From the NCBI GenBank assembly GCA_004335835.1, contig RWJK01001840.1, forward strand, positions 1-64,000: 64,000 nt of DNA, written 5' to 3'. The notes under the pieces were generated by a model. That model had not been told where the DNA came from. It did not search any database and was given only the letters and a program-made list of their open reading frames with translations. The position numbers and the translations under genes were made by a program. This DNA comes from Scenedesmus sp. ARA3 (lineage: Eukaryota > Chlorophyta > Chlorophyceae > Sphaeropleales > Scenedesmaceae). Shown in pieces: positions 1,175 to 63,782 of this stretch. The stretch's first letter is position 1. Every line of letters begins with the position of its first letter.

Positions 1175-4100
1175 TCAGGCAGATGCAGCCTCAGCACCAG
1201 GCTGTGCCTCCACCTCCGCTGCTGCTGCTGCTGCTGCGGCTGCTGGTGCAGCGGCGCCGCTAGCCTGCCCCTGCTCTGCCGGCTCTGCCACTGCAACAGG
1301 AGCAGCAGCAGCTTGCGATTCCGCCGCAATCACCGCAGCAGCAGCAGCATCCCTCGCAGCCCGCCCTTCCCTAGCCTCCTTAGCTTCCTTGCTGCTGCTG
1401 CTGTGGCCGGCTGCGCCTGCGGCAGCAGCAGCAGTGGACGCATGGTGGTGCCTGCTGCTGCTGCTGCAGGAGCCCCGCCGCTCACTCCTATGCTTCTCAT
1501 CGCCCGAAGCATGGCTGCTGCTGTGGTTGCTGGCGTTGCTGCTGCTGCTGACCTGGCCAGAGGCACCCCGCAGCCGCAGATCAACAACCAGCACTGTCAC
1601 ATTGTCACGCGTGCCACGCTCCAGTGCTGCTTTTGTGAGAGAGGTTGCGGCGCGCTTGGCGGCGGCAACGCCTGAGTGGCCTGACGCCTCGGCTGCCTGT
1701 GGTGCAGTAGCGGCAGTAGAACCGGCAGCACATCAGGCGCAATGCACGTGTCGCATGGGAGCGCTGGCGCTGGTGCCAGGTGATGGTGCAGTGCCCTGCT
1801 GCATGGCTTGTTACTGCACCTGAATGCTGGCCGGAAGCAGGCACAGTCCCTGGTGAAGTACATCACTAGACTCTTCTACTTCCAAAGCAGCACTAGTCAC
1901 CGCCCCGCACCTTACCTGCAGGCTATGCACGGCCATGTCTGCCGCCTCCTGGTTGCAGCGTGCCAAGCAGCGCGGCTAGCACCTTACTTCTAAAACTTGG
2001 TGCGATTCAGCAGCAACAAAGGCAGTGTCGCACCTGCAGGCTGTGCACGGCCATGTCTGCCGCCTCCTGGTTGCAACGTGCCAAGCAGCGCGGCTAGCAT
2101 CTGACTTTTGAACAGTTGAATGCGATTCAGCAGCAACAGAGGCAAATTCGCACCTGCAGGCTGTGCACGGCCGTGTCTGCCGCCTCCTGATTGCAACGTG
2201 CCAAGCAGCGCGGCTACCATCTGACTTTTAAACAGTTTTAAAGAGTGCAGTTGAGCAGCAACAAGGGCAGTTTCGCACCTGCAGGCTGTGCACGGCCATG
2301 TCTGCCGCCTCCTGGTTGCCGATGACGTCCCACAGCCCATCGCTGGCCATGACCAGCACCTCATCCTCACGGCTGCGCTCCACCATCAGCACCTGCGGCA
2401 CAAATAACATGCAGGGCTGTGTTATTCCCTTGTAAAACAAAACAATGGTGATTGTTGTTCACAGTGCATCACTGGGCTGTCGTTGGCACCTCGTCTTCAC
2501 GGCTGCGCTCCATCATCAGCACCTGCAGCGCATTGTGACAACCAGGCAACGTGTGTTGTGTTGATACGAGGCTTGTCTACAATACTACCGACTGCTGGCT
2601 GCGCTCCACTATCAGCACATGCAGTGCAATGTAACAACCAGGCACAGTGTGTTGCGGAAAACAGCTGCATGGGCCACTGCAGTCAGCACTCGTCCTCACG
2701 GCGACACCAACACCTGAATCAATGACAGCAAGTAACAGACACAACACGAAGGTGCCGTAGGACGAACGAACGTCAACCAGCCCACCTCGGGTTCTGGGAT
2801 GACGTAGGGCCGCAGACAGTGGTCCCCGATGGCCCTGCTCACTGCCAGCCACCCCCACCAGCAACGGCGACAACCAGACAATAACAAAATGAGTAGCACA
2901 AGGATAACATACTAGTAACATTCGGAAATCAGCCCACCTCTGGTTCTGGGATGACGTAGGGCCGCAGGCAGTGGTCCCCAATGGCCCTGCTAACTGCCAG
3001 CTCCCCCATCACCCTGTCCCACCACACATGGCCGCCCGCAGCCTGCAGGGGAACACCAAACAGCAGCAACGCAGTGTAATATAAGTGCATTATATCCCTG
3101 CATCAGGCCGGCCTGATAACAATGGCACAGAGCGCAAGGGCTGTGTGGCTGCAGTGCATCAGGCTACAGCACGGGTGGCAATGTATATATGTGCGGGTGC
3201 TCACACAGCGCGTGACGTGACCAGATTGCAAGCGTTCGAAGCAGTTGCGAGTTGCGTAACAGCAGACCCTTGCCACGTCCAGCGCGGCTCTGTTGTTATC
3301 AGAAGGATTGCATACGGATGCATGCAAGCAGGATAGCGATACAGCTGACGAGACCCACCGACTCGCAGACGTGTTGTGCTGCGCATGCTGACGTTTACGA
3401 CATCACAATGCTACATTACCATCACGTCACGTCATCTTGCGCACCTGCACCCGCTGCACCTCATCGTCGCGCGAGGCCTTGTGGTCGCTAGTCAGCACTA
3501 CTGCACTGCCCTTGCGACCCAGCACCGCCCGAGAGTCGCCTGCAGTGCGGCACACCCATGCATAACAGCAGCAGCAGCAGGAGCAGCAGGATCAGACAAG
3601 TCGAAGTCAAGAGACAGGATCAGGCTGCACTATGGCAATGCCTAAACAGCACAGCCTCCTGCAAGTCAACTCCTGCTGATCCTTGGGCCAGTCAGCTGCG
3701 AGGCACAAATGTAACATGTTACATGCTAATCCGAAAAAGCAGTGACAGCCATGCCAGGCTCACCTGCGTGCGCCACCCAGAGCCGCATGCTGCTCAGCAG
3801 CACCACCACTGCAGTGCTGCCCACATAGCTGCCCTCACTGAGCACCCCAAACTCGCTGTCAAGCGTCACAAACGACCTGCAGGAAAAGCAACACACACAC
3901 GCAGCTTTCGTCAATGCAGCACTGCAGTAAGGGTGCTGTGCGTGCAGCTCGCTCAGCACCTTGTAACCCGCTGCCGAGCGCCACACACGAACGGCCGGGT
4001 GTCCGTCGTTTGAGCAGGCACAACAGGTGCTGCTGTGTCTATGCCCCAAGGCGCAAGTTGCCCAGCACATGTATGGGTGTGGCAGCCGCAGCGCCCCGCA

Positions 4101-63234: not shown

Positions 63235-63782
63235 CACCGGGGAGGACAGGGAGCTAGGGCGCTGGAGCGTGCCGATGAATGGAGTGCAGATGAACAGGAA
63301 CACGGCGGCTGACGGTGCTGTTGTGTAAGGAGGGTGCGTTCCAGGGTCCAACGTCAGCAGCAGCAGCAGCAGGCGGCGGTGGCGGCAGCGGCGGCGGCGG
63401 CAGCATCAAAATTGCAGCAGCAGCAGCAGCAGCAGCAGCAGCAGCAGCAGCAGAAGCAGCAGCAGCAGCAGAAGCAGCAGCAGCAGCATTGGCAAAGAGA
63501 AGCAACAACCCGGAGGACCGGGAGCCGGGGCGCTGGAGCGTGCTCACAAATGGGGTGAAGATGACCAGAGATATGGCGGCTGAAGGCGTCGTGTAAGGAA
63601 GTTGTATGCTGGCAGCGTAACACCAGCAGCAGCAGCAGCAACATTGCAGCAGCAGCAGCAGCAGCAGCAGCAGCAGCGGAAGCAATAACCGGGAGGACCA
63701 GGAGCCAGGCAGGTGGAGCGTGCTTACAAATGGGGTGAAGCTGAACAGGGAGATGGCGGCAGATGGTATTGTGTAGGGGAAG
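63235..63782 (+). repeat. Three extra copies of the DMP C-terminus with stop codon
   Basis: EDRELGRWSVPMNGVQMN (about 63240-63328), EDREPGRWSVLTNGVKMT (about 63511-63595) and EDQEPGRWSVLTNGVKLN (about 63690-63776) follow the real C-terminus. Each keeps the frame and its own TAA or TAG, and they are separated by CAG/GGC-rich spacers. Confidence 0.9.

Follow-up and report, generated by a model that had tools for sequence, protein, structure and literature searches.

Local direct repeats of exon edges, about 121 bp apart, in the green alga Scenedesmus sp. ARA3

In the potato RdRp gene, a tandem duplication across one intron-exon border, on the acceptor side, made a new intron, and the vertebrate genes ATP2A1 and ATP2A2 are named alongside it as cases of tandem duplication (PMC4974935). 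Small tandem duplications are attributed, in the accessible part of PMC8355091, to the filling in of complementary 3' overhangs followed by end joining, with Pol alpha-primase/CST and non-homologous end joining as the machinery. Introners, in the accessible part of PMC9860276, are similar sequences copied between genes, some of them with 3-9 bp target duplications, though not in all families. Minisatellites are made of many near-identical units and are independent of gene structure. Gao and Lynch (2009) reportedly described internal gene duplication accompanied by intron change. As they are cited in PMC4974935 (again in its accessible part), their duplications are of segments with entire introns. 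Here we describe a set of repeats found in 64,000 nucleotides of Scenedesmus sp. ARA3 (assembly GCA_004335835.1, contig RWJK01001840.1, positions 1 to 64,000; this whole stretch is called the window below) and in other parts of the same genome, in which the edge of an exon, with its splice site, recurs in direct orientation in the neighbouring intron, typically some 121 bp away.

These repeats share features with each of the described systems. As in potato, a short tandem duplication lies over one border and carries splice signals, on the acceptor side in about half of the cases. The potato duplication is a single event that creates a new intron, whereas here about one edge in eight (88/667) is affected, by one unit length and at donors as often as at acceptors, and an existing intron grows while the mRNA, judged by two proteins of a close relative, is unchanged. 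Like fill-in duplications, the repeats are local, direct, short and of unique sequence; the accessible part of PMC8355091 names no length near 121 bp as preferred, and its main text lacks the word 'intron'. Like introners, which are reported in green algae (PMC9860276 and PMC4457414, accessible parts), they are associated with introns in many genes. Introners have similar copies at many loci, whereas three units examined here are unique to their loci and 33 spacers form no family; and in place of 3-9 bp target duplications there are direct repeats of tens of bases that include coding sequence. With the duplications of Gao and Lynch they have in common that duplication within a gene is the source of intron change, but only the junction region is involved here. 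They also differ from minisatellites in that most edges have a single extra copy, at an offset of about 121 and linked to the edge; the true minisatellites nearby (L016 6798, L025 9597) have shorter units. In the open-licence literature we found no description of a genome-wide, fixed-length, junction-centred set of duplications. The statement in an earlier, sequence-only reading of the window that no such system was known is nevertheless too strong, given the single published border-crossing duplication (PMC4974935).

The sample consists of the window, 165.7 kb and about 76 kb of other stretches of the genome, four of whose pieces adjoin the window. It comes to 294,746 non-N bases, about 0.34% of the 87.3-Mb genome (1567 contigs), with 231 kb outside the window; since the window was picked for showing the pattern, the figures from outside it are the fairer ones. 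Comparison of the window with itself by BLAST (basic local alignment search tool) turned up dozens of direct repeats close together, at offsets near 121, and Tandem Repeats Finder independently reported arrays with periods of 117-133 at 1914, 12915, 15463, 18981, 22668, 61327 and 62158. All-against-all comparison within each piece of the sample returned 354 direct and 56 inverted matches. Among direct matches less than 1.2 kb apart, offsets are commonest at 100-139 bp, with harmonics near 240. Well over 200 direct matches fall within 1.2 kb, compared with 16 palindromes and 5 other inverted matches, so the repeats are local and of direct orientation. Shuffled sequence from Markov models of order 1, 3 and 5, with 320 kb for each, contained no local direct match and 0, 4 and 2 inverted ones.

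Exon edges were taken from gene models made in this analysis with a self-trained exon-chaining predictor, which learned donors like CAG|GTGAGT and acceptors like TGCAG|G and gave exons and introns with median lengths of 145 and 291. A raw edge-anchored census, reaching up to 700 bp into the intron side, found copies at 53/333 donors and 46/334 acceptors, where chance would give 0.5 each; in all, there were 159 copies at 99 edges. Where AG and GT happened to stand on either side of a copy, the predictor had in some cases called it an exon. Removal of 11 such entries (3 in the window, 6 in the RPN2 locus L022 and 2 in L012) left 88 edges with 146 copies among the 667 edges scored. A single extra copy is present at 57/99 edges in the raw census and at 48/88 in the cleaned one, where 29 edges have two copies, six have three, three have four and two have five. 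In the window, 28/143 scored edges have 44 extra intron-side copies (raw, 48 copies at 31/146 listed edges), in good agreement with the rough count of fifty made by eye. The pattern reaches well beyond the window, with copies at 60/524 edges in the sample elsewhere (raw, 68/539 listed). Control 72-mers, searched in one direction, found matches for 45/671 intron, 21/278 exon and 18/251 mixed words, part of which are expected to be the copies themselves. Between the edges and their outermost copies lie 15,643 of the 133,609 predicted intron bases (11.7%; raw entries), which supports the suggestion that the copies add to introns. The histogram of predicted intron lengths has no clear 121-nt steps, and introns built in such steps are therefore not seen in it.

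The association with exon edges does not depend on the edge-anchored search. When 192 repeat pairs were merged into 94 clusters, 60 of these spanned a predicted exon edge, although copies mis-called as exons may somewhat inflate this class; random shifts gave 32.0 +/- 4.2, with a maximum of 46 in 500. The others were all-exon (6, some of them coding minisatellites), noncoding (17) or of other kinds (11). The excess at exon edges anticipated from the window is thus present in the 295-kb sample.

The position of the unit across the junction is equally regular. First-order offsets have a median of 122.5 in the raw set (n=86; interquartile range 115-130, 5-95% range 99-158) and of 123 after cleaning (n=75), close to the spacing of about 120 nt and the direct tandem arrangement first noticed by eye, and donors (121) do not differ from acceptors (123; p = 0.52). 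The copy sits on the intron side in 54/57 pairs, and offsets are evenly spread over the three reading frames. On the exon side the unit ends a median of 49.5 nt from the junction (interquartile range 41-62, n=76), and its intron part has a median of 71 nt (interquartile range 59-83). In the 52 cases whose exon is no shorter than the unit, the mean exon share is 0.46 and the shares are not uniformly distributed (Kolmogorov-Smirnov p = 4e-6). Counts per tenth are 0, 4, 4, 12, 17, 7, 1, 3, 2 and 1 (51 cases, with one further share above 1.0), shares below about 0.17 being undetectable by the placement method. The share exceeds 0.6 in 8/52 cases, compared with 25 expected (p = 1e-6). Non-uniformity holds separately for donors (27; p = 5e-4), acceptors (25; p = 3e-3), the window (Kolmogorov-Smirnov p = 0.03) and the other loci (p = 1e-4). 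The unit-placement test and the flank-homology test below took offsets of 85-170 and needed a minimum of exon sequence; these two and the splice-dinucleotide test dropped only four or six of the 11 mis-called entries, and some stayed in. The copies in the window are as follows.

1914-2319, minus strand: PP2C, donor edge of exon 2279-2392, four-copy array of one real and three extra copies (1914-1956, 2022-2074, 2147-2194), about 121 bp apart
2486-2622, minus strand: PP2C, acceptor edge of exon 2279-2392, two copies (2486-2532, 2597-2622)
2775-2845, minus strand: PP2C, donor edge of exon 2938-3042, one copy, offset 152
5089-5152, minus strand: PP2C, acceptor edge of exon 4880-5011, one copy, offset 131
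6312-6349, minus strand: PP2C, donor edge of exon 6426-6937, one copy, offset 116
12912-13239, minus strand: Hydrolase_4 gene, donor edge of exon 13158-13441, three-copy array, offsets 117-119, two extra copies mis-predicted as exons
15463-15789, plus strand: PsbP, acceptor edge of exon 15728-15901, two upstream copies (15463-15527, 15588-15655), outer flank unlike the inner spacers
18168-18363, plus strand: ABM, acceptor edge of exon 18468-18554, two copies, exons in agreement with the Tetradesmus obliquus protein P0121
18615-18665, plus strand: ABM, donor edge of exon 18468-18554, one copy, offset 100
18981-19096, plus strand: ABM, acceptor edge of exon 19150-19280, one copy, offset 133, almost a full unit
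19339-19404, plus strand: ABM, donor edge of exon 19150-19280, one copy, offset 112
19856-20022, plus strand: ABM, acceptor edge of the exon starting at 20206, two copies (19856-19920, 19956-20022), with CTG runs and a 50-N gap (20093-20142) between
20383-20573, plus strand: ABM, donor edge at 20320, two copies, offsets 122 and 241
21146-21186, plus strand: ABM, acceptor edge at 21273, one copy, offset 120, anchored part 41/41 identical
21458-21719, plus strand: ABM, donor edge at 21372, two copies, offsets 127 and 342
22674-22857, plus strand: ABM, acceptor edge of the last exon (matching copy in the exon at 22925-22980), two copies, offset about 122
31750-31797, plus strand: coiled-coil gene (first read as DRC10), donor edge at 31676, one copy, offset 120
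32726-32882, plus strand: the same coiled-coil gene, donor edge at 32641, two copies, offsets 112 and 242
38928-38996, plus strand: APE2-like gene, acceptor edge at 39061, one copy, offset 121
40235-40396, plus strand: APE2-like gene, donor edge at 40188, two copies, offsets 104 and 203
41228-41286, plus strand: APE2-like gene, donor edge at 41153, one copy, offset 121
57712-57782, plus strand: gene first read as a 'family relative', donor edge at 57506, one copy, offset 265
61153-61221, plus strand: donor edge at 61088, one copy, offset 121
61324-61497, plus strand: DMP-like gene, acceptor edge at 61589, two copies, offsets 140 and 261
62282-62674, plus strand: DMP-like gene, donor edge at 62210, four copies, offsets 124, 245, 368 and 483
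63241-63724, plus strand: predicted donor edge at 63057 in a weak gene model with CAG-rich surroundings, three copies (63241-63272, 63508-63544, 63688-63724), offsets 204, 475 and 655

Each of the eight loci named in the sequence-only reading thus has one or more copies; for the 'family relative' this is a single copy, at offset 265. Their gene names fared unevenly. A Pfam search supported PP2C, the hydrolase (Hydrolase_4), PsbP and ABM, gave matches below the cut-off for the APE2-like gene (Exo_endo_phos) and the DMP-like gene (DUF679), and returned none for the coiled-coil gene called DRC10 or for the 'family relative'. The ABM gene of the window is 99% identical to the T. obliquus protein P0121, as is the RPN2 gene of L022 (predicted exons, suspected copies omitted) to another protein of that species, and both models agree with these proteins save where a copy was called an exon. 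On these identities the sequenced alga would be T. obliquus or a very near relative of it. P0121 is also known from a source labelled lgn, which we take to be assembled sequencing reads. The few amino-acid differences suggest that the proteins may come from a strain other than the sequenced one.

Apart from the edge copies, the window contains a tandem gene family of three copies (44301-46746, 47743-49782 and 50124-52293), whose matching stretches agree at 71-87% and are offset by about 3.1, 5.7 and 2.7 kb, and a weaker, more distant relative of it at 57271-57482. CTG/CAG runs cross introns and exons alike (for example 18053-18145, 20035-20200 and 37243-37340), giving long Ala/Ser/Gln tracts in predicted proteins, and two 50-N gaps (20093-20142 and 45869-45918) adjoin such runs. 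Elsewhere in the sample, L004 has coding minisatellites at 3617-4454 and 6450-7311, whose offsets are multiples of about 33 and 36 bp.

Many pairs appear at first as a match of 40-90 bp, comprising the exon edge, the splice site and a few intron bases, with unrelated sequence between. In a sensitive comparison, however, the intron next to the real edge and the intron next to the copy scored above a reversed control in 26/32 single-copy cases (p = 2e-5) and in 29/35 multi-copy cases; taken case by case, 15/38 single-copy cases reach p < 0.05. In most single-copy cases, then, the outer flank is homologous to the spacer, so whole units were duplicated, and this homology led us to reject as the general case a model in which a short edge copy was placed about 121 nt away behind an unrelated, inserted spacer. 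It may apply to some of the arrays in which inner spacer and outer flank differ. The claim that exon edge, splice site and adjacent intron are all repeated thus stands, with the correction that the intron part has decayed more, so that many pairs now show edge and splice site only. A few two-copy units match over only their own length (L023 5676, L022 4338), their ends being blurred by decay. One case departs from the claim that it is splice sites that are repeated: in L021, at edge 7107 (reverse-strand coordinate), the alignment reads as a duplication of equal length over the end of a coding region and its stop codon, with no splice site. The duplication process may, given this case, be wider than splice junctions.

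We interpret the repeats, with slightly more confidence than doubt, as the products of many independent tandem duplications of about 121 bp, each across a single exon-intron junction and covering some 50 nt of exon and 71 nt of intron, which have since decayed on the intron side. The copy joined to the exon would stay functional, while the other would become intron, be spliced out and decay neutrally. The extra copy is nearly always found in the intron, since the mRNA would be altered by other arrangements. A local break with long staggered ends, filled in and joined by a route like that in the accessible part of PMC8355091, might start each duplication, and a weakness linked to transcription or splicing might concentrate such births at junctions. 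Arrays of three to six copies, the real one included, would then grow by further unequal exchange, and the outcome would be introns that grow from exon edges.

The copies themselves look like relics, shaped mainly by neutral decay. In-frame stops, which had been thought frequent, occur in the exon part of only 2/50 pairs; frameshift indels are found in 14/50 instead. In RPN2 and ABM, real and copied codons show 48 amino-acid and 41 synonymous differences over 440 codons (array copies counted singly, and not independent). At 36 of those 48, relatives share only the residue of the real copy, many of them invariant, and at 10 both states occur; the remaining 2 side with the copy and stem from entries in which real and copy were swapped. 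The T. obliquus proteins P0001 (RPN2) and P0121 (ABM) contain the real exons only and none of the copies, which requires no new intron. A coding constraint acting on the copies, an idea raised by the codon-position bias (differences of 61/33/131 at the three positions in 50 pairs; 90/1492 at 0-fold and 81/377 at 4-fold sites), was rejected on account of the frequent frameshifts, of the changes at invariant residues and of ratios of indels to substitutions that are similar in exon and intron parts where spacers still align. Gene conversion from the real edge was set aside by reasoning alone, as it would not separate exon from intron parts. CpG is depleted in the sampled loci (observed/expected about 0.55, in exons and outside). 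Sites of this kind differ between copies two to three times as often, which accounts for only part of the codon bias; the depletion and the differences together suggest cytosine methylation.

Several observations weigh against this interpretation. Single-copy intron parts have diverged by about 0.27 per copy, calibrated against simulated decay, and exon parts by only 0.065 at 0-fold sites; this calibrated difference of about fourfold is unexplained, although the two values are much closer (0.133 for exon, 0.172 for intron) where spacers align. The 0-fold/4-fold ratio is 0.35 (interval 0.29-0.43) compared with 0.50-0.67 in neutral simulations, an excess of synonymous difference that is likewise unexplained. 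Inner spacers of arrays are often alike and the outermost flank often unlike them, which plain duplication of an exon-plus-intron unit does not predict. No pair at an offset of about 121 matches over its full length at 93% or more, so that recent births are not directly seen, and the fill-in route of birth is drawn from the literature. Loci differ strongly in the frequency of copies (raw counts; chi-square 84.8, 24 degrees of freedom, p = 1e-8): L022 has them at 15/28 edges raw and 9 cleaned, and L007, L014, L015 and L026 together at 0/115 (raw). Across loci we found no correlation of this frequency with intron length, GC content at third codon positions, noncoding GC or CpG. Finally, the edge counts depend on the predicted gene models.

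Some of these features could arise if duplications of about 121 bp occurred at random everywhere, with no preference for junctions: exonic ones would be purged, intronic ones would decay on both copies, and edge copies would stay visible through their one constant partner. All-exon clusters are indeed few (6/94), intron parts do decay faster, and intron-only units of similar length exist (L004 6222, L022 4338). We simulated such a process by placing duplications of about 121 bp at random positions across the predicted gene map, removing those inside or around whole exons, and applying neutral decay and similar detection. With an intron rate of 1.5-3 (old ages) the simulation nears the short intron extent observed, so a match that stops at the splice site is not strange in itself. 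At the same BLAST settings, however, it gave a ratio of edge to noncoding clusters of 0.98-1.41, compared with 60:17 observed, and the gap widens in that several of the 17 noncoding clusters are, by reading, minisatellites or unpredicted edges. Nor do simulated units centre on the junction as the real ones do: with faster intron decay, large exon shares should prevail, whereas the observed share is centred, although selection against long exon shares could yield part of this. We therefore regard random origin followed by decay as unlikely without being negligible. As the edge excess and the centring are unmatched, and intron-only units are scarce though selection should spare them, we lean, with modest confidence, to births concentrated at junctions. 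We also entertain, tentatively and with more doubt than belief, a junction-directed process, active now or recently, in which machinery linked to transcription or splicing would break and duplicate the DNA from about 50 nt into the exon to about 71 nt into the intron, at donors and acceptors alike, so that introns lengthen from their ends in steps of about 121 bp.

Three further explanations account for less of the data. That diverged haplotypes or strains were joined end to end during assembly, giving false tandem copies, is suggested by the scaffolded state of the assembly, with its 50-N gap in a CTG run between two ABM copies, and by exon parts that, like alleles, differ mostly at third codon positions. 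False joins should also strike exon interiors, though, where clusters are few, and they explain neither the frameshifts and changes at invariant residues nor arrays of up to five extra, regularly spaced copies. Searches of the genome with five stretches found no second long match such as a mixture of haplotypes should give (in one of the five, 40 of 1022 candidates were scored; the non-self matches listed were about 140 bp or shorter), and we consider an artefact very improbable. We give no more credence to a function that would keep the copies in place, whether as alternative exons or as decoy or recursive splice sites. In its favour, exon parts have changed less than the intron beside them and most copies retain GT or AG. 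These dinucleotides are intact, however, in 64/84 and 44/57 copies (76-77%), if anything fewer than the 82-83% that neutrality predicts; divergence does not clearly rise or fall on approach to the splice site, offsets favour no reading frame, and the two T. obliquus proteins lack the copies. The proposal of functional decoy sites accordingly finds no backing here. Slippage or template switching from CTG/CAG hairpins, put forward earlier as a shared cause, is just as improbable as a general explanation: runs of at least 15 nt occur in 5/40 spacers, more than the 0.9 expected, while 35/40 are without them and yet the unit length is common to the whole set. CTG runs may play a part in some cases, though not as a rule. 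A repeat family in the spacers was likewise rejected, the 33 compared sharing only CTG/CAG-like matches. Three units searched in the whole 87-Mb genome each matched their own locus only; the units tested are not mobile elements.

Little is known of how introns lengthen when transposons play no part, and PMC4974935 reports single tandem-duplication events. This compact genome, with 88 edges affected in 295 kb, appears to contain a great many independent events that could be dated, their genome-wide number being an extrapolation. Whichever origin applies, the copies can mislead gene prediction, as several were called exons by the predictor used here. If splice junctions are where the duplications form, RNA processing would be tied to DNA damage or its repair, and this link would leave a measurable footprint; if selection and decay make the pattern, the alga would provide a natural experiment on which duplications splicing tolerates.

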